Positions 2,809 to 45,833 of a stretch of 48,683 nt of DNA are shown here, in pieces. Made by a program: the position numbers and the translations under genes. This DNA is from Clostridia bacterium (lineage in GTDB: Bacteria > Bacillota > Clostridia > Christensenellales > QALW01): contig JAFXDC010000007.1 in NCBI GenBank assembly GCA_017516345.1, forward strand, positions 1 through 48,683. The letters run 5' to 3'. Under the pieces are notes generated by a model. It had not been told where the DNA came from. It ran no database searches and saw nothing but the letters and a program-made list of their open reading frames with translations. Positions within the stretch are counted from its first letter, which is position 1. Every line of letters begins with the position of its first letter.

Positions 2809-2841
2809 TCAATGCTTATTTCATAATTGGAGGAAAACAAA

Positions 2842-3768: not shown

Positions 3769-3906
3769 ACCTTCAAACGGGTAAAATCGGGTAAAAATAT
3801 TTTATTAAAGTACGAAATTGCTAGAATTAAAACCAAAAAAGCATATTAAGCCATCGTGATTTTTGTTATTATAAATATAATAGAAAAATTCAGGAAGGAT
3901 ATAAAT

Positions 3907-5343: not shown

Positions 5344-5359
5344 GAGTTAAATACGGTAA

Positions 5360-5390
5360 AGATCGGAAGCAAGCCTTCCGATCTTTTTTT
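5360..5390 (+). terminator. Rho-independent terminator after the second lipoprotein gene
   Basis: A 10-bp perfect stem (AGATCGGAAG / CTTCCGATCT) with a 5-nt loop runs into seven T residues. It starts 16 bases after the stop codon and separates this gene from the convergent ZIP gene. Confidence 0.85.
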
Positions 5391-5413
5391 ATGCTCGTTT
5401 CCTCGGACGAGGA

Positions 5414-6163: not shown

Positions 6164-6266
6164 ATTATCACCTTGCAGGTCGTAGCTTTTTTTTTAAATA
6201 AAACACCCTGCAGTTGCAAAATATGACGGAATATTTATTTTGGTTACAAAATATATTGATATATAC

Positions 6267-6294
6267 TTGACATTACAATATTAAATGATATAAT
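6267..6294 (+). promoter_or_regulatory. Strong sigma-A promoter of the metal efflux operon
   Basis: A consensus TTGACA at 6267-6272 and TATAAT at 6289-6294 are 16 bases apart. The operator described next begins 3 bases after the -10 box, so a bound repressor would block initiation. Confidence 0.75.
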
Positions 6295-6297
6295 GAA

Positions 6298-6319
6298 CAT
6301 ATGAATAATCGTTCAAATG
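6298..6319 (+). promoter_or_regulatory. ArsR/SmtB-type operator (inverted repeat)
   Basis: CATATGAA-6-TTCAAATG is an 8-6-8 inverted repeat with one mismatched pair, covering the predicted transcription start. The GAA...TTC core is what SmtB/CadC/CzrA-type repressors recognise. The adjacent regulator is the obvious ligand, giving autoregulated, metal-induced expression. Confidence 0.65.
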
Positions 6320-6333
6320 TTGGGAGGAATATC

Positions 6334-6675
6334 ATGGAAAATACACCCTGTAAGCTTCATAAGGATGCGGTGGAGCAAATAAAACAAGCTATGCCGCCCG
6401 AGGATGTTACCACAAGACTTGGGGATTTTTATAAGATCTTCGGCGATAGCACCAGGATAAAGATACTCTATGTGCTTCTGCAAAGCCAGATGTGCGTTTG
6501 CGATATCTCTGCGGTGCTTGATATGAATCAGTCAGCAATAAGCCATCAATTAAAAATACTAAAGCATTCAAAGCTTGTAAAGTGCCGCAGAGAGGGTAAA
6601 AGCATGATCTACAGTCTTGCAGATAGCCACGTGGAGAGCATAGTAAACCAGGGAATGAAGCATATTTGTGAATAA
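6334..6675 (+). CDS. ArsR/SmtB-family metal-sensing repressor
   Basis: 113-residue winged-helix repressor. The recognition region reads CVCDISAVLDMNQSAISHQL, and the CVCD motif is shared with CadC-type sensors. The C-terminal helix has a D-x-H-x10-H pattern (from DSHVESI to KH), matching the alpha-5 zinc site of CzrA/SmtB. The second ATG (6334) is chosen because GGGAGG lies just upstream; the first ATG at 6301 falls inside the operator. It is the first gene of an operon with an HMA protein and a P1B ATPase. Metal release from DNA would induce efflux. Zn or Cd is the likely signal. Confidence 0.88.
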   Translation: MENTPCKLHKDAVEQIKQAMPPEDVTTRLGDFYKIFGDSTRIKILYVLLQSQMCVCDISAVLDMNQSAISHQLKILKHSKLVKCRREGKSMIYSLADSHVESIVNQGMKHICE

Positions 6676-6699
6676 AATACTAAACCGGCGGAGGAAAAT

Positions 6700-6909
6700 A
6701 TGAAAAGGACGTATACACTTATAGATCTTGACTGTGCGACCTGTGCCGCACTCATGGAGGAGAGCATAAGAAAAATAGAGGGAATAGACAGCGTTTCCAT
6801 AAGCTTTATGACAAGCCGTATGGTCATTGAAGGGCCCGATATCACGGCGTCTCTTTTGAATGAGGTCAGGAAACGCATCAAAAAGGTGAATCCCGACACT
6901 ACATTTTAA
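6700..6909 (+). CDS. Free-standing HMA (heavy-metal-associated) domain protein
   Basis: A 69-residue single HMA domain, ferredoxin-like fold, with the metal motif DLDCATC (Cys12 and Cys15). An acidic residue just before the CxxC is typical of Zn/Cd-type HMA domains of ZntA-like pumps rather than copper chaperones. A GGAGG site precedes the ATG. It sits 24 bases after the repressor and 18 bases before the ATPase, which itself lacks an N-terminal HMA domain. It probably acts as a detached metal-binding domain delivering ion to, or regulating, the pump. Confidence 0.85.
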   Translation: MKRTYTLIDLDCATCAALMEESIRKIEGIDSVSISFMTSRMVIEGPDITASLLNEVRKRIKKVNPDTTF

Positions 6910-6927
6910 TTTTCTTGGAGAGCGTAA

Positions 6928-8736
6928 ATGAAAAAACATCAAAAAACCCTACTAAGGATAATAATATCCCTTGTGCTTTTCACAGCGGGCTTGCTTGCGC
7001 CGCTAAGCGGCCATTGGAGGCTTATTTTATTTGTTCCGGCATATCTTACCGTAGGATACGACATCATAATTAAGGCCGCCGGCAATATAGTGCGCGGTAG
7101 CGTAATGGATGAAAATTTCCTTATGACCGTGGCAACCGTCGGCGCTTTTTTACTTGGTGAGTACGCCGAGGGCGTAGCCGTTATGCTGTTTTATCAGATA
7201 GGTGAGGGTTTTAATCACTATGCGGTGGAACGGTCAAGAAAAAGCATATCAGCTCTGCTTTCCCTAAGACCTGATTTTGCCCGTGTGCAACTTCCCGACG
7301 GCTCCACGCAGGAGCGGGATCCTTACGATGTAAGGGTGGGGGATATAATACTTGTTAAGGTAGGAGAGCGTGTACCTCTTGACGGTGAACTGGTAAGCGG
7401 CAAATGCGTGCTTGACACCTCCGCCCTTACCGGAGAGAGCATGCCCCGCGAGGTGGAGAGGGAGGTCTTAAGCGGCAGTATAAATCTTGATAGCGTTATC
7501 ACCCTGAGGGTGACGGGGGATTTTGAATCAAGCACGGTCAACCGTATACTGGAGATGGTGGAGAGCGCAAGCAATAAAAAGGCCAAGGCGGAGAATTTTA
7601 TAACAAAATTTGCCCGCTTTTATACCCCCATAGTGGTGTTTTCTGCGTTGGCACTTGCAGTAATTCCGAGCATAATAACCGGTCAGTGGACGGTTTGGAT
7701 ACAAAGAGCACTCGTTTTCCTGGTGGTATCATGCCCGTGCGCACTTGTAATAAGCGTGCCCCTTACCTTCTTTTCGGGCATCGGCGCATTTGCAAAAGCG
7801 GGGGTCATGGTAAAGGGCGGAAGCTCCTTTGACGTGCTGTCAAAAATACAGACCGTGGCACTTGACAAGACCGGCACCGTCACCAAGGGACGCTTTGATA
7901 TCGTTGATGCGGTGGGCATTACGGTTGATAAGCAGGAGCTTATATCCCTTGCGGCAAGTGCTGAGTACTACTCCACACACCCTATAGCGCGCTGCATCGT
8001 GGGAGCGGCAGAGCGTGCGACACCGCCTGAGAGCAATACCGAGCATGCGGGCGGCGGATGCGTTGCAACGGTAAAGGGCAAGGAGGTGGCGGTGGGCTCA
8101 TCAAGGCTTATGGCATCTCTCGGGGTTAACGCTGAGGGTGCGCGAGGAAGAATATTTGTAAGTGTTGATAAAGAGCTTGCGGGATATATCGATATAGCCG
8201 ATACCGTTAAGGAGGATAGCGTCAGGGCGATAGCCGAGCTTAACAAAATGGGTATAAGCACGGTGATGCTCACAGGTGATACCGAGGCGGTAGCTCAGGA
8301 TATAGCACAAAAGGTGGGCATAAAAAACCACTATAGCTCTCTTTTGCCCGATGAGAAGGTGGAAAGGATCGAGCAACTGCTTTCCGAGGGAAAATGCGCC
8401 TTCGTCGGAGACGGCATAAATGATGCCCCCGTGCTTGCAAGAGCCGACGTGGGTATATCAATGGGTAAAATAGGAAGTGATGCCGCAATAGAGGCGGCGG
8501 ATATCATCATCATGAACGATAGCCTTACCAAAATACCGCTTGCCATCAGACTGGCAAAAAGAATAATGAGGATATGCTCGCAGAATATCGTATTTTCCTT
8601 GGTAATAAAGATCGGAGTTCTTGTTCTTGGAGCGCTTGGATACGCCAATATGTGGCTTGCTGTATTTGCTGACGTGGGAGTATCGGTGCTCGCTGTGCTG
8701 AACGCTATGCGCGCAATGATCTGGAAGGAAAAATAA
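6928..8736 (+). CDS. zntA: P1B-type heavy-metal (Zn/Cd/Pb) translocating ATPase
   Basis: 602-residue metal-efflux ATPase. Visible motifs: TGES (168-171) in the actuator domain, the transmembrane metal site CPC (269-271), the phosphorylation site DKTGT (Asp313), the HP motif (STHPIAR, about 351), TGD and GDGINDAP. In the final helix FADVGVSVL carries the Asp typical of Zn/Cd/Pb pumps (P1B-2). It has no N-terminal HMA domain, starting almost directly with transmembrane helices, and the HMA function is encoded by the gene just upstream. It ends at a strong terminator. Metal specificity is inferred from the CPC and last-helix Asp; the symbol denotes this subgroup. Confidence 0.92.
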   Translation: MKKHQKTLLRIIISLVLFTAGLLAPLSGHWRLILFVPAYLTVGYDIIIKAAGNIVRGSVMDENFLMTVATVGAFLLGEYAEGVAVMLFYQIGEGFNHYAVERSRKSISALLSLRPDFARVQLPDGSTQERDPYDVRVGDIILVKVGERVPLDGELVSGKCVLDTSALTGESMPREVEREVLSGSINLDSVITLRVTGDFESSTVNRILEMVESASNKKAKAENFITKFARFYTPIVVFSALALAVIPSIITGQWTVWIQRALVFLVVSCPCALVISVPLTFFSGIGAFAKAGVMVKGGSSFDVLSKIQTVALDKTGTVTKGRFDIVDAVGITVDKQELISLAASAEYYSTHPIARCIVGAAERATPPESNTEHAGGGCVATVKGKEVAVGSSRLMASLGVNAEGARGRIFVSVDKELAGYIDIADTVKEDSVRAIAELNKMGISTVMLTGDTEAVAQDIAQKVGIKNHYSSLLPDEKVERIEQLLSEGKCAFVGDGINDAPVLARADVGISMGKIGSDAAIEAADIIIMNDSLTKIPLAIRLAKRIMRICSQNIVFSLVIKIGVLVLGALGYANMWLAVFADVGVSVLAVLNAMRAMIWKEK

Positions 8737-8740
8737 AAAT

Positions 8741-8775
8741 AAGATCGAGGCATCGTAAAGGTGCCTCGATCTTTT
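8741..8775. terminator. Bidirectional rho-independent terminator
   Basis: A 12-bp stem (AAGATCGAGGCA / TGCCTCGATCTT) is flanked by T-rich runs on both strands. It lies between the convergent ATPase and cysteine-rich genes and can serve both. Confidence 0.85.
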
Positions 8776-8788
8776 TATGGCAAAGTAA

Positions 8789-9481
8789 TTACAATACCGA
8801 ATCGCACTCGCAATCACAGGAGCAACCGCTTGTCAGCTCGGGCGGGAACAGGGGAAGAGAGAAGAATTCGTCGCACACCTCTGAGGCAAACTCTTCGCAT
8901 GGGGGAATGCGGCAAAAGCCGTATGTGGGAACAAGAAGCTCGACCTCTGCAACTACCTTAAGGATAACTGTGACGCACACGGTAAGGCGGAAGGTGTTGT
9001 CGCAAAGGTAACATCCCTGGACGCAGATGGCGCTTGCGATGCTCTCGATGCTAAATGGGATTATGGATTCGTCGGGAACAAACAGGATAACGTCCTTGTT
9101 TACGGTTATAACACCGTTTCCCTTGCCCTCGTTTGAGCAGGAATCGCAAAACAGGATCTCCACGGGGATATCCACCTTACAGCGTACGCGGGCAAAGTTG
9201 GGGCGGTCGCAAAGGCGCTCGATGCAAAGGTCGCGAACTCTTCCCTTGGTGGTGGTGGATCTGCAGCTTACAAAGGTGATGGGAGCATCAAATTTTACTC
9301 CGCAGGGACAGATATCGGTAATACGGACGTTTACCGAGTCAAGCTGCTGCTGTTGGATGCAGGAATCGTAGACCTTTTTAACCTGGATACATACCCTTTC
9401 GGTCAGACCGCGGGTACAGTCGCCGTTTATGCGCCCCGGGCAAACGTCGCCTGAGCCCTGTCTATATGAATAAAAAGACAT
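8789..9481 (-). CDS. Cysteine-rich conserved protein of unknown function
   Basis: 230 residues with about 26 cysteines spread throughout, no signal peptide and no clear transmembrane helix. Cysteines occur singly and in pairs (CPC, CSC, CDC, CEC), and the C-terminus ends with a Cys/Asp/Glu-rich tail. The central part alternates hydrophobic and polar residues like beta-strand protein, and two similar halves may exist (ITFVSCRS and VDIPVEILFCDSC). AGGAGG precedes the ATG. A CATAATATA element with AC 17 bases upstream resembles a sigma-K promoter, so a late-sporulation or spore-coat role is possible but unproven. No enzyme motif was recognised. Confidence 0.75.
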   Translation of the reverse strand: MSFYSYRQGSGDVCPGRINGDCTRGLTERVCIQVKKVYDSCIQQQQLDSVNVRITDICPCGVKFDAPITFVSCRSTTTKGRVRDLCIERLCDRPNFARVRCKVDIPVEILFCDSCSNEGKGNGVITVNKDVILFVPDESIIPFSIESIASAICVQGCYLCDNTFRLTVCVTVILKVVAEVELLVPTYGFCRIPPCEEFASEVCDEFFSLPLFPPELTSGCSCDCECDSVL

Positions 9482-9523
9482 TATTTTTCCTCCTTAACAT
9501 AAAATGTATTTACAGTTTCAATA

Positions 9524-9551
9524 TATATTATGCTTTAATTATATAATACGT
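9524..9551 (-). promoter_or_regulatory. Possible sigma-K-like promoter of the cysteine-rich gene
   Basis: On the minus strand AC, 17 bases, then CATAATATA fits the loose sigma-K pattern AC-N16/17-CATANNNTA. The pattern is short and the region is AT-rich, so chance occurrence is likely enough to keep confidence low. Confidence 0.25.
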
Positions 9552-9676
9552 GTTTGCCGCTTGCTTAATTACCAAAATCGTGATATATTAAACTCGCAGC
9601 AAACGGTATTACACTTATAAAATATGTCACGAAAAATATAAGGGTTACCGATATTAAAAATAAAGGATTGATCAAA

Positions 9677-10918
9677 ATGATAAATTGGGATAAGCTTGGT
9701 GTGCGACCTGCGGATATTCTTCTGCCTGAAACGAGAGATATAACAAGATGGGGCTGTGTTGCATGCGACCAATTCACCTCGGACGGTGAGTATTGGGATG
9801 CAATGGAGGATTACGTGGGTGATGCACCAAGTACCTTGCGAATCACCTTTCCCGAAATATATCTTGGTAAGGATGATGAAAAATACATCTCAAGTATTAA
9901 CGCTTGTATGAGGGATTACCTTGCAAGGGGCATTTTCAAGGAGTATAAGGGTGCTATTATAAAATGTGAGCGCACCTTGCGAAACGGAAGCGTCAGAAGC
10001 GGCCTTGTCATGGCGGTGGACCTTGAGGCGTACGACTACAGCGCCGGCTCGCAAAGCATGATCCGTGCCACCGAGGGCACCATAGTACACCGTCTGCCCC
10101 CCAGAATTGCCATAAGAAAGGATGCTCCTCTTGAGCTTCCTCATATTATGATACTTATCGACGATCCGAACAATACGGTAATTGGCAACGTAAGCGGAGC
10201 CGAGGTATACAATACTCCTCTTGCAATGAACGGCGGAAGCATTAAGGGTAGTCTTTTAAGTCCTGATGAGCACAAAACCGTGGCCGATGCACTTGCAAGG
10301 CTTGCCGATCAAAAGGATTTTGCAACCAAATACGGCCTTGATGAAAGCACCGCGCCCCTCGTATACGCCATGGGTGACGGTAACCACTCCCTTGCCTGCG
10401 CAAAGGCATGCTGGGAAAATCTTAAAAAGGAGCTTTCACCCGAGGAGCAGGCTAACCATCCCGCAAGATACGCTCTTGCAGAAATCGTAAACCTCTATGA
10501 CGAATCCTTACAGTTTGAGCCTATTCACCGCGTTGTTTTTGACGTTGATGCAGAAAAGCTCATCTCGGAAATATCTGTAAATGACGGCGTTAGCGTAACC
10601 GTAATAACTGAAAACGGCGAAAAAACCGTCACGGTTAAAAAGACAAACGAGCTTGCAGTAGGAAGCCTGCAGGATGCACTTGATGCATATATGGAGAAAA
10701 ACGGCGGCAGAATAGATTATATTCACGAGCCCGAAACAGTTGCAAAGCTTGGCTCTCAAGCAGGAAACGTGGGCTTCATTCTCCCTGAGTTTGATAAAAG
10801 TCAACTCTTTCCTGCGGTAATAAGCAGTGGTGCTCTACCCCGCAAAACCTTCTCCATGGGTGAGGGTTGCGATAAGAGATATTATTTTGAGGCGCGCAGA
10901 ATCAAATATGTTATCTGA
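9677..10918 (+). CDS. DUF1015-family protein
   Basis: 413-residue cytoplasmic protein of the DUF1015 family (COG4198). It opens with the family-typical RPADILLPETRDITRWGCVA-like block. A conserved GDGNHSLACAK motif follows near the middle, similar to the DGHHR-type catalytic motifs of ParB/Srx-fold proteins. ATG 9677 is preferred over the in-frame TTG at 9668, because AAAGGA is 9 bases upstream of the ATG. The biochemical role of the family is not established to my knowledge. The next gene starts 40 bases later, but its product is secreted, so a functional link is not implied. Confidence 0.85.
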   Translation: MINWDKLGVRPADILLPETRDITRWGCVACDQFTSDGEYWDAMEDYVGDAPSTLRITFPEIYLGKDDEKYISSINACMRDYLARGIFKEYKGAIIKCERTLRNGSVRSGLVMAVDLEAYDYSAGSQSMIRATEGTIVHRLPPRIAIRKDAPLELPHIMILIDDPNNTVIGNVSGAEVYNTPLAMNGGSIKGSLLSPDEHKTVADALARLADQKDFATKYGLDESTAPLVYAMGDGNHSLACAKACWENLKKELSPEEQANHPARYALAEIVNLYDESLQFEPIHRVVFDVDAEKLISEISVNDGVSVTVITENGEKTVTVKKTNELAVGSLQDALDAYMEKNGGRIDYIHEPETVAKLGSQAGNVGFILPEFDKSQLFPAVISSGALPRKTFSMGEGCDKRYYFEARRIKYVI

Positions 10919-16951: not shown

Positions 16952-17614
16952 ATGGAAAAAGTCAAGAAAAGCAGAATAGAAATACCCAAATATACTCTTG
17001 GCGAGGAGCTTGTCAGCGCAATATCCCACGGTATCGGTGCTGTTTTTGGGGTGGTTGGCCTTGTGCTGTGCCTTATAAAGGCCGTTTCGACAAATGATGC
17101 ACTAAGGATCACCTGCGCCGCAGTCTACGGTTCTACTCTGATAGTTTTGTATGCAATGAGCACCATGTATCACTCTCTTAAGGTCAATAGGGCCAAAAAG
17201 GTATTCAGGGTCATCGACCATTGCAGTATATATTTGCTCATTGCGGGTACCTACACTCCGTATTCCCTTATTACTCTTCAAGGATGGGTGGGATACGCCA
17301 TCTTTGCCGCGGTATGGATAACCGCCATCGTGGGCATCGTGTTTTCGGCTATAGACCTTAAAAAATTCCGAGCTTTTGCAATGACGGCTTACATAGCAAT
17401 GGGATGGGTCATCATCCTTGCCATCAAGCCGCTTATAGACTCCCTTGCAACGGCGGGACTTTGGCTGCTCTTTATCGGAGGAGTAGCGTATACCTTGGGC
17501 GTGCTTCCCTTTGCACTTGGCAAAAAGCACAAATATATGCATTCCATGTTCCACTTTTTCGTGCTTGCGGGCAGCATACTTCACTTTTTAAGCATTTATT
17601 TATACGTTTTATAA
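16952..17614 (+). CDS. Hemolysin III / PAQR family membrane protein
   Basis: 220-residue seven-helix membrane protein of the hemolysin III/YqfA type, related to adiponectin receptors. Conserved histidine signatures are visible: ISHGIGAV near the start, AMSTMYHS in the second helix, GTYTPYSL, and MHSMFHFFVLAGSILHF near the end, which together form the metal-binding site of PAQR proteins. AAGGAG precedes the ATG by 6 bases. These proteins have been linked to membrane-lipid homeostasis rather than true hemolysis. Downstream sequence begins with GCAGGTC, which may be half of a terminator split by the neighbouring element. Confidence 0.9.
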   Translation: MEKVKKSRIEIPKYTLGEELVSAISHGIGAVFGVVGLVLCLIKAVSTNDALRITCAAVYGSTLIVLYAMSTMYHSLKVNRAKKVFRVIDHCSIYLLIAGTYTPYSLITLQGWVGYAIFAAVWITAIVGIVFSAIDLKKFRAFAMTAYIAMGWVIILAIKPLIDSLATAGLWLLFIGGVAYTLGVLPFALGKKHKYMHSMFHFFVLAGSILHFLSIYLYVL

Positions 17615-17634
17615 ACGAAAGTAAAAAAATAAAA

Positions 17635-17771
17635 GCAGGTCGAAGGCTACGTACTCTTAAGGACAGTTTTGCGGCAAATTACCTGCCGTAAAACAGACAA
17701 AAGACAATGTTTCTATTTTCAGAGTAGCATATCGAATTTCGCCCGAAAGGGCGAGCAGACCTGCAGAGGTC
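17635..17771 (+). ncRNA. Candidate structured RNA or element end (riboswitch-like fold)
   Basis: Hand folding gives: P1 GCAGGTC (17635-17641) with GACCTGC (17758-17764); P2 GCTAC (17646-17650) with GTAGC (17724-17728), extended by TCT/AGA; P3 GTTTTGCGGCA (17666-17676) with TGCCGTAAAAC (17684-17694), including one G-U pair; P4 TCGCCC-GAAA-GGGCGA (17739-17754). AGGTC at 17767-17771 could pair with GACCT and compete with P1, as in a switch. The nearest promoter (17830-17858) starts downstream, so this RNA would need its own or read-through transcription. It matches no RNA class I recognise. It overlaps the left inverted repeat of the unit, so a DNA role is an alternative. Confidence 0.35.
17636..17671. 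repeat. Left inverted repeat of unit 1
   Basis: These 36 bases match the reverse complement of 19455-19490 at 25 positions with no gaps. The inner 22 bases (CGTAC...AAGGACAGTTTTG) match at 19. Together they bound a 1,855-bp segment holding one gene. Confidence 0.65.
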
Positions 17772-17792
17772 AATATGTAAGGTTTCCTAACA

Positions 17793-17832
17793 AAATAGGG
17801 CGGTTTGAGCGAAAGTTCAAGTCGTCCTATTT
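17793..17832. other. 18-bp hairpin with GAAA tetraloop
   Basis: The arms 17793-17810 and 17815-17832 pair along all 18 positions, including four G-U pairs, and close a GNRA-type GAAA loop. G-U pairs preserve an RNA stem but not a DNA palindrome, which hints at an RNA role. The 3' arm touches the -35 box of the next promoter. It could be a terminator of an upstream RNA, although the following T-run is short. Confidence 0.55.
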
Positions 17833-17858
17833 ACTTTTAGGCGGATTTATGATATAAT
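17830..17858 (+). promoter_or_regulatory. Sigma-A promoter of the unit 1 membrane-protein gene
   Basis: TTTACT, 17 bases, TATAAT, ending 43 bases before the ATG at 17902. Confidence 0.6.
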
Positions 17859-17901
17859 GATTATGTTACCGGTACAGCAATGTGTTTTAGGAGGTGGCGT
17901 T

Positions 17902-19284
17902 ATGCAAAACAATCCCGAGGTTATTCAAAAAGCGAAACGATATGTAAGAAGATATAAAATTTGGTGTACTGTATTTGCCATGTGCATTGTTTTGGGATAT
18001 TGCTTGGTTGCTTTGCAGGGCAACATATTTGCTACGCTTGCAGCATTAGTTGTATTCCTTTTGATGATTCTAATAGGTAGTCCGATTGTATTCAACAAGT
18101 GCATACTGTCAATATTGAATAAAAAACTGGATGCCGATACGTATCTTGCCACCGTATATCAAGGAAAATTTGATACACCTGCGGCTTTATGGCAATTATA
18201 TGGTGAATATTTTTGCGGCCATTATCAAAATGTAATAAGTATCTGCAAAATGAAATTAGATGATCCTAAAACGGCTACTCGCTATAAATATCACTATCTT
18301 ACATATCTTGCTAATGTGTATTTTGATATTGGTGATGACGATAATCTCCGAAGCGTATGTGAGCAATATGAAATTGCATTAGCTAAGGAAAAAACGAGTA
18401 AACAGGAAAATTTCCGCAAACGCTTCCCCCGAATGACTTTTTACGATCTCTATTTGAAGCAAAATATTGATGCTTGTATTACGTGGGTCAATACGCCTAC
18501 GCCTGTAATACTCAACCAATATCACCGTAAACTTTGCAAAGCAAGACTCGCTCTTATGCAGGGGAATGAAGAAGAAGCTAACGAATATTATGAGGTATTA
18601 GCAAAAGAAGTCGCCCATTTGAATTATGGTAAATTGTCGATAAAGCAGTTAGCCGAGCAAAAGAATCAAGAAGTTGATGATTCCTTACAAAAATTAAGCG
18701 TCTCGGATGAATCAGCAGATGTTACTCTATATCCTGCAAACAAACGTAAGTTTAGAAAGGCACTCGGGATTTGCTTGATTGCGTTCGTCGTGATTTATTC
18801 TGCTATAGGGATTTTAAGAGTTATAAACTCGAATAAGAGCTCCGACAGCAAGACAGATGCTTATCATGCTTATCTTGAGAATGTTCGCGTGCTTGTAGAA
18901 GAAGATTATGATAACGTAGTTATGCTGGAAGCCTTCAATCTGAAAAACGGTGAAGAAAATATTGATGCGATGTTTGTCTGCCGCACAGATGAAAAGATTA
19001 TCGTTGGATGCCTATATACATACGATGGTGACTCGCAACAATATTATGAAAAGATGACCGATATATCCATAGCATCACTGTCTGAAGATCGCTCTCCTCT
19101 TTGGTATTGTTCTTTTCCGTCAAAGACTTCTCATAATCAGATAGAAAGTTACTTTTATACAGTAGAAGCAGATGTCCCTGCGGATTATGTGCACTTATCA
19201 ACCTTTGAGATAAGTGGACAGAAAGTATATTATGTGATAACAGAGATTGTTCCGGGGATAGTAATAACTATGCCGGCAGAATAA
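17902..19284 (+). CDS. Membrane protein with helical-repeat middle region, unknown function
   Basis: 460 residues. Two adjacent transmembrane helices (about 20-38 and 41-60) are followed by about 220 mostly helical, soluble residues that resemble TPR-like repeats (YLANVYFDIGDDDNL, MQGNEEEANEYYEVLAKE). A third helix (about 288-308) leads to a C-terminal domain of about 150 residues rich in beta-strand and acidic residues. ATG 17902 is chosen for the AGGAGG 8 bases upstream. Codon use is visibly AT-richer than in neighbouring genes. It is the sole gene between the two inverted repeats of unit 1. No enzymatic motif recognised; a sensor or stress-linked role is only a guess. Confidence 0.8.
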   Translation: MQNNPEVIQKAKRYVRRYKIWCTVFAMCIVLGYCLVALQGNIFATLAALVVFLLMILIGSPIVFNKCILSILNKKLDADTYLATVYQGKFDTPAALWQLYGEYFCGHYQNVISICKMKLDDPKTATRYKYHYLTYLANVYFDIGDDDNLRSVCEQYEIALAKEKTSKQENFRKRFPRMTFYDLYLKQNIDACITWVNTPTPVILNQYHRKLCKARLALMQGNEEEANEYYEVLAKEVAHLNYGKLSIKQLAEQKNQEVDDSLQKLSVSDESADVTLYPANKRKFRKALGICLIAFVVIYSAIGILRVINSNKSSDSKTDAYHAYLENVRVLVEEDYDNVVMLEAFNLKNGEENIDAMFVCRTDEKIIVGCLYTYDGDSQQYYEKMTDISIASLSEDRSPLWYCSFPSKTSHNQIESYFYTVEADVPADYVHLSTFEISGQKVYYVITEIVPGIVITMPAE

Positions 19285-19298
19285 GAATTATTGATTAG

Positions 19299-19326
19299 CC
19301 ACGGCTCACAGCGAGCCGTGGTTTTT
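19299..19326 (+). terminator. Rho-independent terminator of the unit 1 gene
   Basis: A 9-bp stem (CCACGGCTC / GAGCCGTGG) with a 5-nt loop is followed by TTTTT. A second small palindrome (TTTTGCTA / TAGCAAAA) overlaps its T-run. Confidence 0.85.
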
Positions 19327-19340
19327 GCTATGTATAGCAA

Positions 19341-19413
19341 AAGGGAGCCTTTTTTTGTTCATCTGTGACTTGTCAATTTTCCTGACAAGCACTGCATTTG
19401 TGGACACAAATGC
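19341..19413 (+). repeat. Two-hairpin repeat module, copy 1
   Basis: It starts AAGGGAGCCTTT and contains two hairpins: CTTGTCA/TGACAAG (19369-19389) and GCATTTGT-GGAC-ACAAATGC (19394-19413). The second copy is at 38952-39026. The first hairpin is identical in both. In the second hairpin the third base pair is A-T here and T-A in the other copy, so pairing is kept by a double change. In this unit the module lies downstream of the gene. Confidence 0.75.
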
Positions 19414-19416
19414 AAT

Positions 19417-19450
19417 AATACGGCATACCTCTTTCGAGATATGCCGTATT
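19417..19450. other. Hairpin next to the right end of unit 1
   Basis: An 11-bp perfect stem (AATACGGCATA / TATGCCGTATT) with a 12-nt loop lies just inside the right inverted repeat. No T-run follows. Confidence 0.55.
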
Positions 19451-19454
19451 CTTA

Positions 19455-19490
19455 CAAAACTGTCCTTTATGGTACGCTCCTAAGGATCTG
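19455..19490. repeat. Right inverted repeat of unit 1
   Basis: Reverse complement of the left repeat at 17636-17671 (25 of 36 positions; CAAAACTGTCCTT is the most conserved part). Beyond it a T-rich run precedes the next promoter. Confidence 0.65.
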
Positions 19491-19516
19491 TTTTTTGTTT
19501 TTAATATTAATATAAG

Positions 19517-19545
19517 TTGTCAAAAAACTTTTGGTATGCTATGAT
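19517..19545 (+). promoter_or_regulatory. Sigma-A promoter
   Basis: TTGTCA, 17 bases, TATGAT, ending 23 bases before the ATG of the next membrane protein. Confidence 0.6.
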
Positions 19546-19568
19546 GCTTATAAGGAGGCAGAGGGCTT

Positions 19569-20090
19569 ATGGAATTTTGCGCACATAATAACTATCAGCC
19601 GTTTATAACGCAGTATTTTGGTATCGATCTTAATATTGCATGGCCATTATGGCTTGCGATAACGATATCATTGGAGCTCTTTCTTTGCTTTTTCATGGCC
19701 CGTCCCAATAAAGCCTTACTTGAAAAGCTTGGTTACAGAGGCAAACACGGTACCCCCATCTATACACGCAGAATGCTCTACAAGCATTTCTGGCAGCAGA
19801 GATGGTATTGGTTTTTTGATTTTTACATTTCGGTATTCGGGTATACCGTGGCAATTCTTGTGCTTGCGCTAAAACTTGATTATGCCTATATCGACCTTAT
19901 ATTTGCGCTGTGTGTGATAATAGCATTCTTGCGTATATGGGCAGGAGTATCCCTTATAATAAGAATGGGCAACGCCTTTTGCAAAAGCACGGGGTATATA
20001 GTCGGTATGATACTCCTTCCCACCGTATTTTATACAAGACTTGCACTCAGCGACCAAGTCCCTGTATTTATAAGCAATTACGATGAATGA
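19569..20090 (+). CDS. Polytopic membrane protein of unknown function
   Basis: 173 residues with about four hydrophobic segments. The first is around residues 24-42 (WPLWLAITISLELFLCFFMA). After a basic loop (KLGYRGKHGTPIYTRRML) and a Trp/Phe-rich patch (FWQQRWYWFFDFY), three more helices follow. GGAGG lies 10 bases before the ATG. I do not recognise a family. It starts just outside the right repeat of unit 1 and has its own promoter, so it is likely resident. A 59-base gap separates it from the flavoprotein gene. Confidence 0.75.
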   Translation: MEFCAHNNYQPFITQYFGIDLNIAWPLWLAITISLELFLCFFMARPNKALLEKLGYRGKHGTPIYTRRMLYKHFWQQRWYWFFDFYISVFGYTVAILVLALKLDYAYIDLIFALCVIIAFLRIWAGVSLIIRMGNAFCKSTGYIVGMILLPTVFYTRLALSDQVPVFISNYDE

Positions 20091-39170: not shown

Positions 39171-40799
39171 ATGACAAATGAGGAAATCATTCAATATTAT
39201 GATTATCTGATAAGACTTGCGACATCAAAATGCAACTCGCAAAATGATGCCGAAGATCTTGTAGGAGACACAATGCTTGCGGCTTTTGCCTACATGCACC
39301 GCGGAGGGGTAATAGAGCATCCAAAAACTTGGCTTACCAATACGCTCTGCCATAAGCATAACGATAACCTTAGAAAAAAATATCGCTCACCCGTTACAGT
39401 ATGTTTAGACGAAAGCGCCGAGGTTGCGGAAGACGAGGATGAAGAATATTTAACCTCCAAAGAAGCATCCAAGGTACGTAAGGAGCTAAATCATCTAAGC
39501 TTTATTACACGTGAGGTTCTGATACGCTTTTATTTTGGAAATCAAAGTGTTTCGGATATTGCCGAGGGTCTTGGTATCCCCGAAGGAACGGTAAAAAGCC
39601 GATTGTCAGCAGGTCGTAATCAGATGAAGAAAGGACTTGAAACTATGGAAACAAGAGAAAACTATTTGCCCGGCGAGATGTGTCTGTCTTTCGGCGGCTC
39701 GGAAGGATTAAAGGGGGAACCAATGTCGCTTGTTGAGGGCGATCTCATCGCAACGAATCTTTTGATTCTTGCATATGACAAGCCTATTACGATCAGTGAT
39801 CTTTCCAAAGCAATCGGCATTCCTGCCGCATATATTGAGCCGATCATCAAAAAGCTTTTAGATGGTGAGCTGATGGTGCAGATGGATGGCGGCAAAGTAT
39901 ATACGGATTTTATCATTACAAGACCGCAAAACTCGCTCAATAACTTCAAGCCGCAGCTTGAATTTACTCATAAGCACTTTGAAACAATATGGAAAATTAT
40001 CGAAAGAATGTCCGATAAGATTTTAAAAATGTCTTTCGTGCAAGAAATGAGTACCGAGGAAAGAACAAAGCTTGATAGATATGCCGTTTTGAAAGCATTA
40101 CAAGACTTTCAGCATTTTGGCACAGGCAAGATTGAAGCACCAAAGTTTCCGAAACGAAAGGACGGCGGTTGGTGGTTTGCTCAAGCCACCGTATTTGATG
40201 CGGGATACAATACGAAGGAGTATAACGAAGCATCCGAATATTGCATTCACGGCGGTCACCGCACATCAGAAGCAAAAGCAGTAGGACGAACCAAGCGTAT
40301 CCGTTTCTATGAATTTGACACTACGTTGTGGGATAGCCCTCATCGTTACGGTGGCGCGTATGAACTGTATTTTAAGCATATCATTCCGCTACTGTGGAGC
40401 ATCTACGACAGTATTTCACTTGAAACCTCAGATATTCCCAATGAGTTTATCTCCTATATTCCAACTCTTGAACGCTTGGGTGTAATTGGGCATACAGAGG
40501 ATAAATTGTGTGTTACGATCCCAGTATTAAAGAAAGCGGAATATGATGAAATGTGCGTGGTAATTAAAAATGCGACCGAAGAAATAAAGACGGCTATAGG
40601 AGAAGAATTCACAACCTTTATTGCTTCTATGAAAACGCCTATTCCTAAGCACCTCACATCCGTTCCCAATCTTTTCAGATATCACGAAGCGACGAAATAT
40701 TTTGTTATGTCTGTCGTCAGGGAAGCATATGACAAAGGATTGCATCTGAAGGACGTTGATTACTGCTGTCCGCCCGTGGTGTTGGTGTACGAATATTAA
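39171..40799 (+). CDS. ECF-type sigma factor with large C-terminal extension
   Basis: 542 residues. Residues 5-72 are sigma region 2 (NDAEDLVGDTMLAAF, HPKTWLTNTLCHKHND) and 103-157 region 4, ending in the helix-turn-helix SVSDIAEGLGIPEGTVKSRL. Typical ECF factors stop near 180. Here a Gly-rich link leads to a predicted winged helix (about 190-246, ITISDLSKAIGIPAAYIEPI) and then about 290 residues of unknown fold with aromatic and acidic patches. ATG 39171 is chosen because region 2 starts directly after it. No anti-sigma gene is adjacent, so the extension probably controls or senses. The gene is the only cargo of unit 2. Confidence 0.87.
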   Translation: MTNEEIIQYYDYLIRLATSKCNSQNDAEDLVGDTMLAAFAYMHRGGVIEHPKTWLTNTLCHKHNDNLRKKYRSPVTVCLDESAEVAEDEDEEYLTSKEASKVRKELNHLSFITREVLIRFYFGNQSVSDIAEGLGIPEGTVKSRLSAGRNQMKKGLETMETRENYLPGEMCLSFGGSEGLKGEPMSLVEGDLIATNLLILAYDKPITISDLSKAIGIPAAYIEPIIKKLLDGELMVQMDGGKVYTDFIITRPQNSLNNFKPQLEFTHKHFETIWKIIERMSDKILKMSFVQEMSTEERTKLDRYAVLKALQDFQHFGTGKIEAPKFPKRKDGGWWFAQATVFDAGYNTKEYNEASEYCIHGGHRTSEAKAVGRTKRIRFYEFDTTLWDSPHRYGGAYELYFKHIIPLLWSIYDSISLETSDIPNEFISYIPTLERLGVIGHTEDKLCVTIPVLKKAEYDEMCVVIKNATEEIKTAIGEEFTTFIASMKTPIPKHLTSVPNLFRYHEATKYFVMSVVREAYDKGLHLKDVDYCCPPVVLVYEY

Positions 40800-40955: not shown

Positions 40956-42122
40956 TTAAATGCGCGCAAAGAATACTCCGCTTATATCCTTAAGGGCGCT
41001 GTGGAGTCTTGCGGTAGCAACCTCCTTAACGGTGAAGGCGCCGCTTGCCCCCTCAATTGCCTCGGGACTGAAGGATTCAAGAGCGCTAAGCACGCTCTGC
41101 TCCGCGCCCTTTGGAGCACGAACGTAATACGAGCCCACAAGCAGCTCCTCGTCATAGGTAAGCTCGGAGGTGAAGCTCTCGCTCAGCATGGAGCGATCGT
41201 CGGTAAGAATATCTATAATATCCTGAACGATGGCGTTTGCGGTGGGATATCTTCCTGCGCCCTGGCCGATAAACTTCAGCTCGCCAATGGTTGCGCCGTT
41301 TAACGAGAAGATATTGAAGTTGCTCAAGGTGGCGGCCTGAGCGGTGTTTTTATCAAACAACGTGGGCTCTATTCTGCAGGCGTATTTATTGCCCGATCTT
41401 AACGAATCTGCATAAAGTCTTATAGATTTACCTATTGAAGCAAAATAATCAAGATCATCAAGGGTTATGCTTCTTATGCCCATCGTGGGGATGTTCTCAA
41501 AGGGTACGTAGGTGGAGTAAGCAAGGGAGGAGCTTATCAAAAGCTTGTTGCGAACGTCAATGCCGTCTATGTCGGCACTGGGGTTGGCCTCGGCGTATCC
41601 CTTTTGCTGAGCGTCGTGCAGACATACGTCAAAGTCTATATGCTCAGCCTCCATGGTGGAGAGGATGTAGTTGGTGGTGCCGTTCATAATGCCGCCAATG
41701 CTTGTTATTTGGTCTATGCGCATGGCCTGGCGAAGTGCCTTTATCCACGGAATGCCGCCGCCCACGCTTGCCTCATACTTAAAGCTTACACCGTGCTCTG
41801 CCGCAAGGGTAACGAATTCCTCGTAATGTGCCGCAACCACGGCCTTGTTGGCGGTAACCACGTTCTTGCCGTTTTTCATGGCGGTGGTGATGAATTCGTA
41901 CGCAGGATGTATCCCGCCCATTACCTCAACCACGGTATCGATCTCATCATTAGCTATGATGGAATCAACGTCGTTGGTCATAAAGTCCATGGTGATCTCC
42001 TCAGGGGTCTTTACAAGAGCCTTTACCACCTCAAGATCCTTGCAGAAAGCAAAATCCCCGTTATTTATAATATCGTAAACGCCGTAGCCGATTACTCCGC
42101 ATCCCAATAAACCGATCTTCAT
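40956..42122 (-). CDS. hom: Homoserine dehydrogenase
   Basis: 388 residues. Converts aspartate semialdehyde to homoserine for threonine and methionine synthesis. The NAD(P) motif GLLGCGVIG is at residues 4-12; the substrate region VTANKAVVAAHYEE and EASVGGGIPWIKALRQ, and the family block GGIMNGTTNYILSTM are intact. The C-terminal regulatory part is short. ATG 42122 is used because AAAGGA lies 6 bases upstream; an in-frame TTG nine codons earlier sits too close to its AAGGAGGA. It stands apart from lysC and no other threonine genes are beside it. Confidence 0.93.
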   Translation of the reverse strand: MKIGLLGCGVIGYGVYDIINNGDFAFCKDLEVVKALVKTPEEITMDFMTNDVDSIIANDEIDTVVEVMGGIHPAYEFITTAMKNGKNVVTANKAVVAAHYEEFVTLAAEHGVSFKYEASVGGGIPWIKALRQAMRIDQITSIGGIMNGTTNYILSTMEAEHIDFDVCLHDAQQKGYAEANPSADIDGIDVRNKLLISSSLAYSTYVPFENIPTMGIRSITLDDLDYFASIGKSIRLYADSLRSGNKYACRIEPTLFDKNTAQAATLSNFNIFSLNGATIGELKFIGQGAGRYPTANAIVQDIIDILTDDRSMLSESFTSELTYDEELLVGSYYVRAPKGAEQSVLSALESFSPEAIEGASGAFTVKEVATARLHSALKDISGVFFARI

Positions 42123-42229
42123 ATATTCCTTTGCCCGAGACTCGGACAATTCCTCCTTACCGTAGCACGCGCTCTTGTCTTAAGCGATAACCGCAACAGC
42201 CCAAGAGCCACCGTTAAATATTGCATCAT

Positions 42230-42258
42230 ATTATAATGCATTTATGCAAAAAAATCAA
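42230..42258 (-). promoter_or_regulatory. Sigma-A promoter and leader of hom
   Basis: On the minus strand TTGATT, 17 bases, TATAAT. The leader of about 100 bases has a GCTCTTG/CAAGAGC stem (42171-42208), a CCGAGACTCGG palindrome (42134-42144) and an extra AAGGAGGA not matched to a good start codon. I see no T-box or riboswitch consensus. The rest of 42259-42431 holds only AT-rich sequence and the terminator described next. Confidence 0.6.
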
Positions 42259-42365
42259 CATAAAATGCACTATAACCATATAAAACCGATAAAAAGTGTA
42301 TAATTTATTCATAAAACGAAAATTTATAAATTTTACGCATTCTCAGCATCTTGTGCCACCCCAAA

Positions 42366-42392
42366 ACGAAAAAAGACTTCCCAAAGGAAGCC
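42366..42392 (-). terminator. Rho-independent terminator of the small minus-strand gene
   Basis: On the minus strand a GGCTTCC / GGAAGTC stem is followed by TTTTTTCG. It lies about 40 bases past the stop codon of the FxLYD-like ORF and resembles the hairpins at the ends of unit 2. Confidence 0.7.
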
Positions 42393-42431
42393 TTTTATGA
42401 TGTTGGTATTATTTAATGCTACTATGTTGTC

Positions 42432-42767
42432 TTATTCGTGCAATTTGCCGCCGTAATATGAGTTTGAGTGCCAATACTTGCCGGTGCAATTGATTATTTT
42501 TGTTGTTCCATCGACATATTGAATTTCTATTTTTTTAGGTTGAATAACAGCAGTGGCTGAATTATAAATAATGGCATTCCAATAGCTTGTCTTGGGTTTT
42601 TGGGGTTTAATAGGGCCTGTTGCTTTTAAGCGTTGGATGGAAGTATCTTTAATGTCGCATAAGGCAGGATGACCCATTCTGTCATAAAACTTAACAGTAA
42701 AGTGAATATAAGCGATATCTTTGTTAACATGATTTGTTATAGTGCCGTTAAAAGTATTTGAATCCAT
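42432..42767 (-). CDS. Small FxLYD-like protein, probably a 5'-truncated remnant
   Basis: 111 codons from the first ATG. The sequence NTFNGTITNHVNKDIAYIHFTVKFYD is typical of the beta-rich FxLYD domain found in secreted and membrane proteins. No signal peptide, membrane anchor or ribosome binding site precedes the ATG, and the ATG lies inside the promoter of the divergent gene. The likely reading is the C-terminal domain of a longer protein whose front was lost when the neighbouring gene arrived. It keeps a good terminator. It might still be expressed as a small cytoplasmic protein. Confidence 0.5.
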   Translation of the reverse strand: MDSNTFNGTITNHVNKDIAYIHFTVKFYDRMGHPALCDIKDTSIQRLKATGPIKPQKPKTSYWNAIIYNSATAVIQPKKIEIQYVDGTTKIINCTGKYWHSNSYYGGKLHE

Positions 42768-42786
42768 ATGGTGATTATGATATAAT
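42758..42786 (+). promoter_or_regulatory. Sigma-A promoter of the HEPN-like gene
   Basis: TTGAAT, 17 bases, TATAAT, ending 29 bases before the ATG at 42816. Confidence 0.7.
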
Positions 42787-42815
42787 GATACAGAAAGCTG
42801 TTGAGAGGAGTTTTT

Positions 42816-44471
42816 ATGGGAATTTATCAGACAATAAAAGAAAACAACATATATATCACTATGGATTGCAGACCCTTAAAGGATGAATATTTGTATTTGG
42901 ACTTAAGCGAAGCAATTACCCACTCAGAAAAAATATTATGTGGTATTTTACAAACTGTACCGGATGTTACATGCTTGGATGATTTGCTGGATTATTTTGC
43001 AATCAAAAGAATTGAATCTTTTGCCGAATCACTTACGACAATAACTGATGAAGCTAATCGAGAGACAATTCGGAAATTAACTGATGCGGCAGGAGAAGTG
43101 GCAAAAAAATATTCCACTGGTACCATCATAAAATATATTAACGGCGAATATGAGTCTCTCTTTGGAAAAAGTGAAGACGATTCAACTGAATTTTTGGAAG
43201 ATGTGCAGACCGTATTTTTTCCACTTGTAGAATTTTGCATAACATATCAAACGGGAATCTCTGATCAGGTATTCTTGTTTTTAGCTGAAAATAGATGGTT
43301 TATTTACATTAGCTATTATGATGAACTGAAAAAGAAATTGCTTGCCTCATGCGAACTCTTTGATAAGGTCTTTTCTCAAGACAATGTATTAAATTTAGTT
43401 CGTTCGCGTTGCAAGGAACTTTTAGAAATAGCGAAATCTATTAGAGAATCTTCGGCAGACAAAAAAACCAAAAGTGCTATTAACGAACGTATTTTTAATA
43501 GCGTTATGGATATTATGAACACAGTTGAAGAACGAGATGTGATTGTTTATTGTGATAATGTTCGTCGTATTAGACGTTATTTTTCAGAAATAAGTTTTGA
43601 TCAAGAAAAATTGGCTCGATTTGAAGAAACACATGATCAATTTAATCAAAAGTTAAACGATTGGATGGACGAGAATGGTAATGTTTTTTCACAAAGCGCT
43701 CCCTCAGATATGGCTGACAGAATATTTGGCTCAAAGGCTGAATGGATAACAAAACTTTTATCATGCACTCATAATCTTAAAAAAGGAAAAATTGTAAGTC
43801 AATTCACTCACGATCCTCCTAAACAAACACCTCTTGTCGACTTTGCATCTCATAACATTGATACCGATGAGTATTTTACATACATCAAGCAACAGCAAAT
43901 ACAAATATTGGGTGGCGTGGGAGCCGCATTGGTGTTACAAACCTATGCTAATGAACAGTACTTAAACAATTTAACCGACTGGATTTGCTATGTCTTGAGC
44001 ACCATTGCAAAACATTTGAAATTTGATGTGGATGATTTGATTGCTGATTTTTCAGCAATCATTCAATCTATACAGTTCGTTTATGAGGCGAGAAAAACAC
44101 CAAGGGATGGGTACGGAACTTGCTTGATATATGGTTCATGTGTACTCATAATTGCTAGTATTGAAAAGTTGCTGCGCTTGGTATATAAGTTTGAAAAACA
44201 AATCGTTTTATCAGATGAACTTATACAACTCAAAGGGCTTTTAAGTGATCCTATAATTTCAAAAGTGCTTACAGAAGATCTTGTGAAAGGTGTCGGATTT
44301 TATTTATCTAAATATGGCTATGTGGGACTGAATTATCGAAACCGTCTTGCTCATATGTCTGATATTAAGATGGATGAGATATCTGATGCTTTGCCGTATA
44401 CACTTTTCTATTTGTATATGTGTGTTGTTAATGGCGTTTTTATATATTATCTCACAGATTCAAACAAATAA
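42816..44471 (+). CDS. HEPN/DUF4209-like protein, candidate defence factor
   Basis: 551 residues, mostly helical, no signal peptide. Near the C-terminus LNYRNRLAHM carries R508-N-x3-H513, the RNxxxH pattern of HEPN-type and DUF4209 domains, where Arg and His often form an RNase active site. It is followed by a hydrophobic helix (YTLFYLYMCVVNGVFIYYL). The first 480 residues show no recognised motif. GAGAGGAG precedes the ATG. The gene is much AT-richer than its neighbours, has its own promoter, and lies between a truncated gene and a recombinase remnant. That context is typical of an acquired anti-phage or abortive-infection gene, but the function is inferred. Confidence 0.72.
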   Translation: MGIYQTIKENNIYITMDCRPLKDEYLYLDLSEAITHSEKILCGILQTVPDVTCLDDLLDYFAIKRIESFAESLTTITDEANRETIRKLTDAAGEVAKKYSTGTIIKYINGEYESLFGKSEDDSTEFLEDVQTVFFPLVEFCITYQTGISDQVFLFLAENRWFIYISYYDELKKKLLASCELFDKVFSQDNVLNLVRSRCKELLEIAKSIRESSADKKTKSAINERIFNSVMDIMNTVEERDVIVYCDNVRRIRRYFSEISFDQEKLARFEETHDQFNQKLNDWMDENGNVFSQSAPSDMADRIFGSKAEWITKLLSCTHNLKKGKIVSQFTHDPPKQTPLVDFASHNIDTDEYFTYIKQQQIQILGGVGAALVLQTYANEQYLNNLTDWICYVLSTIAKHLKFDVDDLIADFSAIIQSIQFVYEARKTPRDGYGTCLIYGSCVLIIASIEKLLRLVYKFEKQIVLSDELIQLKGLLSDPIISKVLTEDLVKGVGFYLSKYGYVGLNYRNRLAHMSDIKMDEISDALPYTLFYLYMCVVNGVFIYYLTDSNK

Positions 44472-44515
44472 AATATAGCAATGGATGTGCAAATGAGTCT
44501 CTTTGTTTGTTGCCA

Positions 44516-44662
44516 TTATCCTCTATAGACGTTTTTGGTCAAAGCATGATTGTTATAACTTTGTCGATAATGCTCTATCGTTCCTTCTTTCAAATTCATA
44601 TGGCTACAATTCTCCCAATACTTGTTGCAACTTTCCTCAAAAGTGAGCGTTACGCCTTTTGC
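44516..44662 (-). pseudogene. Degenerate tyrosine-recombinase N-terminal fragment
   Basis: Read on the minus strand, 48 codons give GVTLTFEESCNKYWENC, a short link, then LKEGTIEHYRQSYNNH. This is the usual look of the SAM-like core-binding domain of phage-type integrases (a TIxxY motif). The frame ends in a stop after VYRG and is preceded by an in-frame stop near a poly-A run; no catalytic domain follows. It therefore appears to be the decayed end of an integrase gene. The rest of 44472-44817 contains the hairpin described next and otherwise AT-rich sequence with no gene. Confidence 0.45.
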
Positions 44663-44705
44663 TATTTTTTTGCTTTTTCACATTGAAAATCCACCTAAAA
44701 AATAT

Positions 44706-44743
44706 AGACACATCACGATGGAAAACTCCAAAATGATGTGTCT
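44706..44743. other. Perfect 10-bp inverted repeat at the island edge
   Basis: AGACACATCA / TGATGTGTCT with an 18-nt loop, and T-rich sequence on both strands outside. It could be a bidirectional terminator or the end of the acquired segment. Confidence 0.45.
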
Positions 44744-44817
44744 AACTTTTTAAATGCTAAATTCAGATAATAGATCTCTTACAATTGCAAGAAAGCCTCA
44801 AAAGCCTCATAAAAAGC

Positions 44818-45816
44818 TTATTTTGCGTTCTCTTCAACAGCAACTGCAACAGCAACGGTCATACCAACCATGGGGTTGTTACCTGCGCCGATAAGACCCA
44901 TCATCTCAACGTGAGCGGGAACCGAGGAGGAGCCTGCGAACTGAGCGTCACCGTGCATTCTGCCCATGGTGTCGGTCAGGCCGTAGGAAGCGGGACCTGC
45001 GGCAACGTTGTCGGGGTGGAGGGTACGTCCGGTACCGCCGCCCGAAGCAACGGAGAAGTACTTCTTGCCGTTCTCAAGAGCCCACTTCTTGTAGGTTCCT
45101 GCAACGGGGTGCTGGAAGCGGGTGGGGTTGGTGGAGTTACCGGTAATGGAAACGTCAACGCCCTCGTGGATCATAACTGCTACGCCCTCGGAAACGTCAT
45201 CGGAGCCGTAAACCTTAACCTTGGCGCGCTCGCCGTTGGAGAAGGCCTTCTCGCTCAGGATGTTGAGCTTGCCGGTGGTGTAGTCGTACTTGGTCTCAAC
45301 GAAGGTGAAGCCGTTGATACGGCTGATGATATAAGCGGCATCCTTACCGAGACCGTTAAGGATAACGCGAAGGGGAGCCTTACGAACCTTGTTAGCGGTT
45401 CTTGCAATACCGATAGCGCCCTCAGCAGCGGCGAAGGACTCGTGACCTGCAAGGAATGCAAAGCAAGCGGTCTCCTCTCTTAAAAGCATGGCGGCAAGGT
45501 TGCCGTGACCAAGACCAACTGCACGCTGGTCGGCAACGCTTCCGGGAATGCAGAATGCCTGCAGACCGATACCGATGGCCTCAGCGGCGTCAGCGGCGTT
45601 TTTGCAGCCTTTCTTAATAGCGATAGCGGCACCAAGGGTGTATGCCCAAACAGCGTTCTCAAAAGCGATGGGCTGAATGGAGCGAACGATGGCGTCTGCA
45701 TCTACGCCGTTTTCCAGGGTATAAGCCTTAGCCTGATCAAGATCGGTAAAGCCGTACTCCTTAAGGCAGGCGTTAATTTTATCAATTCTTCTTTCGTAAC
45801 CTTCAAAAGTAGCCAT
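44818..45816 (-). CDS. GGGtGRT protein
   Basis: 332 residues. The diagnostic segment is SGGGTGRTLHPDNVAAGPAS near residue 265, preceded by a long conserved region (GLGHGNLAAMLLREETACFAFLAGHESF) and followed by a Gly/Met-rich C-terminus. This family occurs in anaerobic bacteria, and I know of no established function. ATG 45816 is preferred to TTG 45822, because the GGAGG site is 10 bases from the ATG but only 4 from the TTG. It begins 17 bases after the NifU-like gene, so the two are cotranscribed. A link to iron-sulfur or redox chemistry is inferred from that partner. Confidence 0.9.
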   Translation of the reverse strand: MATFEGYERRIDKINACLKEYGFTDLDQAKAYTLENGVDADAIVRSIQPIAFENAVWAYTLGAAIAIKKGCKNAADAAEAIGIGLQAFCIPGSVADQRAVGLGHGNLAAMLLREETACFAFLAGHESFAAAEGAIGIARTANKVRKAPLRVILNGLGKDAAYIISRINGFTFVETKYDYTTGKLNILSEKAFSNGERAKVKVYGSDDVSEGVAVMIHEGVDVSITGNSTNPTRFQHPVAGTYKKWALENGKKYFSVASGGGTGRTLHPDNVAAGPASYGLTDTMGRMHGDAQFAGSSSVPAHVEMMGLIGAGNNPMVGMTVAVAVAVEENAK

Positions 45817-45833
45817 TTTCAATACACCTCCGA

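Follow-up and report, generated by a model that had tools for sequence, protein, structure and literature searches.

An AT-rich gene with an RNxxxH motif in its C-terminal region raises the question of whether it encodes a new anti-phage factor, as a sequence-only reading of the DNA had proposed. The window, by which we mean the whole stretch of 48,683 nucleotides analyzed, is one entire contig of a Clostridia bacterium genome of 1.6 Mb that is 70% complete. The gene occupies positions 42,816–44,471 of the plus strand and, based on its open reading frame and an 11-sequence family alignment, encodes a 551-residue protein composed of a helical N-terminus and a C-terminal HEPN-like domain; the frame is intact, from an ATG at 42,816 to a stop codon ending at 44,471. 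An alternative in-frame TTG start lies at 42,801, 15 bp 5' of the ATG, but it is the ATG that is preceded, at 5 nt, by a probable ribosome-binding site read from the sequence (GAGAGGAG, 42,803–42,810, plus strand). The composition is as claimed, with a GC content of 33.9% in a contig of 47% and a third-position GC (GC3) of 28%, against 50–61% in five coding neighbors. The claim that the gene has its own promoter is plausible for one sigma-70-like site (TTGAAT-17-TATAAT, 42,758–42,786, plus strand), which scores 10/12, has the TG of an extended −10 element and lies 30 bp upstream of the gene; however, promoter-like sites across the low-GC stretch number 11 against the 11.8 expected from shuffles and are thus not above chance.

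HEPN proteins are defined by an R-x4-6-H motif with a polar residue after the arginine and by an upstream E-x3-[KR] motif (PMC3710099), and the C-terminal region of the window protein contains both. RNRLAH, the only RNxxxH in the protein, lies at exactly residues 508–513 (44,337–44,354, plus strand) and provides the predicted catalytic R-x4-H, with N509 as the polar residue, while EKLLR at residues 450–454 (44,163–44,177, plus strand) provides E450 and a basic residue at position 454 that is arginine in 10 and lysine in one of the 11 aligned sequences. Members of this alignment (A3) share 18–50% identity with the window protein, and E450, K451, G504, N506, R508, N509, A512, and H513 are invariant, so that every sequence retains GxNxRNxxAH and, upstream of it, E-x3-R/K. 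Given that RNxxxH appears in 1.2% of 20,000 shuffles of the window protein, the motif alone is a mild surprise and weak evidence. Moreover, the pattern used for our genome-wide profile scan, which returned 11 loci, contained the motif, and loci from that scan therefore keep it by construction; the homologs L002–L005 and L013 were recovered by motif-free whole-protein searches, and all five keep RNxxAH.

The expected fit to the HEPN family DUF4209 (Pfam: PF13910) was borne out by profile–profile comparison but not by the Pfam model itself. Relative to the curated cut-off of 22.3 bits, the C-terminal 121 residues of the window protein score 13.2 bits, L002 12.7 bits, and L005 14.0 bits, with the match at the same place in all three, and a Pfam scan of the whole window protein does not list DUF4209. 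An hhalign comparison with seven DUF4209 proteins yields a probability of 95.6 (E 1.1e-8) and brings the two motifs into register, whereas 60 column-shuffled and two reversed control alignments give probabilities of 0.2 or less, supporting homology of the C-terminal region to DUF4209.

Structure prediction points to the same assignment. Residues 350–551, the last 202 of the protein, were modeled without templates (pLDDT 87.2, pTM 0.88), and the model contains an all-helical HEPN-like domain starting near residue 400 (codons 400–551, 44,013–44,468, plus strand), the region that includes the match to the DUF4209 profile. When this model is compared with PDB chains, the best 14 entries by Z score are all HEPN proteins (Z 10.2 to 7.5), among them HEPN-MNT toxins, sacsin, and Csm6, and unrelated helical bundles appear from Z 7.0 down; the top match, 7ae9, has a Z score of 10.2 and an rmsd of 3.8 over 139 residues of a 142-residue chain, although the comparison tool warns that a Z score of about 10 for a helical bundle may reflect a generic arrangement. 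The ranking thus favors a HEPN fold, whereas a Foldseek search of the PDB with the same model gives no significant E-value, the best being 0.65 for a designed protein. Upstream, AlphaFold2 models residues 1 to approximately 287 (42,816–43,676, plus strand) as tandem helices forming a predicted α-solenoid, the presumed sensor or regulator, and the structures that match this region are solenoids of a generic kind, including karyopherins and designed repeats. Foldseek searches of the PDB and of viral protein models with the whole protein returned generic helical repeats and no significant match, and a sequence search of the PDB was likewise without a significant match (best E 0.21, aBAK). The earlier statement that the first 480 residues have no recognized domain consequently holds for Pfam but not for the models, in which the HEPN-like fold begins near residue 400 and the solenoid covers the first 287 residues. 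Mean pairwise identity is 29% for residues 400–551 and 21% for residues 1–287, figures that omit L024, because of its frameshifted N-terminus, and the partial L031. A conserved C-terminus and a variable N-terminus are as expected for a fixed effector joined to a changing sensor, a pattern that falls short of proof of sensing. Based on motif, profile, and predicted fold, we conclude that the window protein belongs to the HEPN superfamily, an assignment that is carried by the agreement of these three lines.

Proteins of the DUF4209/C6orf70 type resemble the window protein in length (approximately 550–620 residues), in having a C-terminal HEPN domain and in the E-x3-R and GxNxRNxxAH motifs, which are in register. 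However, the alignment with the window protein is confined to approximately 105 C-terminal columns and does not extend to the N-terminal halves, and a glycine directly following AH is invariant in the DUF4209 set and absent from the window protein. PADLOC lists DUF4209 proteins as the defense candidate PDC-S39, which is mentioned in PMC11878078, and all three DUF4209 proteins that we scanned match it; with the window protein, PADLOC returns no family up to an E-value of 10, PDC-S39 included, and NCBIfam gives no match. Judged by sequence, the protein is therefore outside PF13910 and PDC-S39 by their own criteria, yet its C-terminus is homologous to DUF4209, and its family is best called a sister family of the DUF4209-type HEPN proteins that is unnamed in Pfam, NCBIfam, and PADLOC.

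Members of this family are rare and patchily distributed across Clostridia, Geobacillus, Fibrobacter, and UBP6. A search of 396 genomes at the order level gave seven matches including the window protein, of which L002–L004 are full length and L005 is a C-terminal fragment; two weak rows (L006 and L007) were set aside, and L006, at −2.5 bits, was taken as a chance match on account of its score and the sequence matched. A profile search of 398 genomes at the phylum level added one homolog, L013, and L014, whose 11.9-bit match covers another part of the protein in a frame of 1089 residues, was attributed to chance on the same grounds. Four of the 11 loci from the profile scan of genome contigs (84,980 species genomes) are repeats (L021 is L003, L025 is L004, L026 is L013, and L027 is L002), and seven were found by the scan only: L022, L023, its partial near-copy L028, L024 (Fibrobacter), L029, L030 (Geobacillus zalihae NBRC 101842, NZ_BCPV01000096.1), and L031 (UBP6). 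With L005, the total outside the window is 12 loci. The nearest relative, L029, is 50% identical to the window protein, and synonymous sites between the two genes are saturated. A frameshift close to the N-terminus interrupts the Fibrobacter homolog (L024, 9,935–11,644), reflecting either an assembly error or a pseudogene. Plasmid and phage collections searched with the window protein and L003, and viral contigs searched with alignments A2 and A3, contained no family member; a single-sequence scan of genome contigs and viral contigs found nothing.

Restriction-modification loci of type I, II, or III enclose or adjoin most of the homologs. In L023 and L028, the stop codon of the homolog overlaps the start of a type III methylase gene by 4 bp and a type III restriction enzyme gene follows; a SNF2/DrmD-like helicase is encoded upstream of the homolog in L023 and is visible only there because L028 begins inside the homolog. 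The type III operons that enclose the HEPN gene in these separately named metagenome-assembled contigs (L023, 7,383–17,406; L028, 1–6,164) are near-identical, which suggests recent transfer or near relatives. L025 encodes, in order, a SNF2-like helicase, two smaller proteins, the homolog, a type III methylase, and a type III restriction enzyme. Type I systems are represented by L027 and L030, where the homolog adjoins hsdR, hsdM, and hsdS, and by L026, where integrase pieces lie upstream and type I genes downstream. At locus L015, a type I restriction locus is separated from a homolog by the gene for a 1065-residue protein without a PADLOC match (7,555–10,752), possibly another uncharacterized defense protein. 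In L024, the homolog lies between genes for a C5 methylase and an MmeI-like type IIG enzyme, and an Mrr-type nuclease is also encoded. In L029, the homolog is followed after 93 bp by a gene for a 1048-residue SIR2-Argonaute (PADLOC pAgo, 1332.6 bits) and then by a further gene that is Orf5/HEC-06-like according to PADLOC and that we take to be DUF262-like; the region past the homolog (1,982–9,129) is a dense defense island with SIR2-Argonaute, Orf5/HEC-06-like, and PDC-S31-like genes. The remaining neighborhoods include an integrase fragment near L021 and a mobilization-type gene near L005, both named by eye, and a serine recombinase gene adjoining L022; we found nothing telling around L031.

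Overall, the homolog directly adjoins a restriction-modification or Argonaute gene on the same strand in six of the 12 loci (L023, L028, L025, L027, L030, and L029). A DNA methyltransferase gene occurs within approximately 10 kb in six of ten loci (L023–L027 and L030) against 0.56 expected (binomial p ~5e-6), the expectation deriving from 35 PF02384 and 15 PF01555 matches in the ten host genomes, or approximately 2.6 per Mb and 0.056 per 21.6 kb, a rough control given its rounded genome sizes, its use of genomes chosen for carrying the gene, and contigs that in some cases end within the 10-kb flank. The four loci without a nearby methyltransferase are L021, L022, L029, and L031, of which only L029 adjoins another defense gene. 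Homologs are thus enriched beside defense genes, mostly restriction-modification genes and in one case a SIR2-Argonaute gene, with recombinases and integrase remnants nearby, and are mostly not in stable housekeeping contexts. A HEPN match together with these contexts, both contrary to what would have refuted the earlier proposal, supports the reading of the window gene as a possible anti-phage factor, a role that we infer.

Around the window gene itself, the evidence concerns mobility. The gene lies in a stretch of 34–35% GC (42,111–44,817) in the 47% GC contig, between hom and a minus-strand gene at 44,818–45,822. The predicted integrase remnant is present at 44,516–44,677 on the minus strand, where approximately 50 residues match the N-terminal SAM-like domain of tyrosine integrases (Phage_int_SAM_3, E 1.5e-4) at 22.4 bits, just below the cut-off of 22.6. 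A truncated gene on the other side is plausible but unproven: the 111-residue ORF at 42,432–42,767 on the minus strand, of the same low-GC stretch, has a weak DUF3426 match (Pfam, E 0.023) and one weak match among 100 relatives (E 0.002), and is probably a truncated DUF3426-like gene. The window gene is absent from all 60 relatives searched, including the four of the same genus or family. Low GC content, a GC3 of 28%, the integrase remnant, and absence from relatives mark this stretch as an acquired island, as proposed. No convincing direct repeats flank it; the repeats that we found are short and chance-like, and we rejected them as att sites. Given that no defense gene neighbors the gene within the window, its local context argues for mobility only; a search of its own genome for a SIR2-Argonaute was also negative. 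The gene would, we envisage, have arrived on an element that carried an integrase and later decayed, leaving it alone with its own promoter. Two other regions of the contig deserve mention: across hom from the island, a gene at 39,171–40,796 (plus strand, 42% GC) encodes a 542-residue protein with N-terminal sigma-70 regions 2 and 4 (Pfam) and a long unrecognized C-terminus, and a second low-GC stretch (17,500–20,000, GC 37–39%) encodes an apparently membrane-bound protein of 475 residues (17,857–19,284).

Several characterized systems offer parallels. AbiA of Lactococcus is described as having a helical α-solenoid, a loop, and a dimerizing C-terminal HEPN domain with an RN...H motif (PMC11077055), and thus the combination of solenoid and C-terminal HEPN domain predicted here; however, it has an N-terminal reverse-transcriptase domain, of which Pfam finds no match in the window protein, and its spacing is R-x6-H rather than R-x4-H. 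An RNase assay of the AbiA HEPN domain is described in the same source, and a HEPN motif may not guarantee RNase activity. Tha, encoded by a single gene in Staphylococcus aureus prophages, has a C-terminal HEPN domain with an RNSIMH motif and is reported to be a phage-triggered, non-specific RNase with an abortive-infection-like outcome (PMC11087260). Like the window protein, it is the product of a lone gene with a featureless N-terminus and a C-terminal HEPN domain, but it has 301 rather than 551 residues and is prophage-borne, whereas our searches of phage and viral collections did not find the window family. PrrC adjoins restriction-modification genes and has a C-terminal HEPN nuclease domain (PMC3710099), and DUF4209 proteins are themselves reported in restriction-modification-related operons (Table 1 of the same source). 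The anticodon nucleases PrrC and RloC share with the window protein a C-terminal HEPN domain, predicted in the latter, and differ in their ABC-ATPase N-termini, which have no Pfam match in the window protein. By analogy, the nearest anatomy is that of AbiA, the nearest demonstrated behavior that of Tha, and the nearest genetic setting that of PrrC.

Given that its distant relatives lie within anti-virus gene clusters, the window gene is, in our view, most probably a dormant anti-phage switch for self-sacrifice. More specifically, sequence comparison, modeling, and homolog context make it probable that the protein is a solenoid-regulated, latent, metal-independent HEPN RNase acting in abortive infection, present here as a stand-alone copy. 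Two subunits would pair via their C-terminal HEPN domains, with R508 and H513 presumably lining a composite active site, and the N-terminal solenoid would hold this site silent and sense infection. We speculate that the trigger would be a phage protein or the loss or activation of a neighboring restriction or Argonaute system. The released HEPN dimer would cut cellular RNA, either tRNA or bulk RNA, stopping growth and thereby blocking phage release. Elsewhere, the same protein would be an add-on of restriction-modification systems.

That add-on role could also be obligatory. In this case, the protein would be a second-line guard that depends on a host restriction-modification or Argonaute system in the way that PrrC depends on its type Ic system (PMC3710099), and the window copy would be stranded and perhaps idle. 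This possibility would account for the six directly adjoining same-strand pairs and the stop–start overlaps of L023 and L028; however, the partners vary among types I, II, and III and Argonaute, which indicates that no single partner is required, the copies in the window, L021, and L022 are without a partner, and the window ORF is intact with its conserved motifs kept. We regard an obligate partnership as possible but doubtful. It is appreciably harder to credit that the protein binds RNA without cutting and only regulates neighboring defense genes: some HEPN families are indeed non-catalytic (PMC3710099) and RNase activity is a prediction for the window protein, but non-catalytic families usually lose R-x4-6-H, whereas R508, N509, and H513 are invariant in all 11 sequences here.

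Two further readings have very little probability. We rejected a toxin–antitoxin pair with the 111-residue ORF as antitoxin, despite its divergent orientation and its end 48 bp before the HEPN start codon, as it has no relative at any other homolog locus examined and resembles a truncated DUF3426-like protein; we judge this arrangement highly improbable. A chance motif in a helical protein of some other function is, in our opinion, hardly credible and was already disfavored. It could draw on the frequency of RNxxxH in shuffles and on the lack of any library match above its cut-off, but both motifs are invariant in sequences as little as 18% identical to the window protein, the profile match far exceeds the shuffled controls, and HEPN proteins are the best 14 fold matches.

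The abortive-infection RNase that we favor would add to the likely HEPN defense effectors a family unnamed in Pfam, NCBIfam, and PADLOC, found via a motif in raw sequence. A bolder extension, to which we attach only a small probability, is that one solenoid–HEPN module serves as a portable "dead-man switch" that docks on type I, II, and III restriction systems and on SIR2-Argonaute, is set off when a phage engages or disables the host system, and can also live alone, as in the window. If this is true, the locus shared with Argonaute would combine guided sensing, an NAD-depleting SIR2, and an RNA-cleaving HEPN domain. With this module found next to defense systems of four kinds, one can ask whether HEPN nucleases are interchangeable second-line guards.
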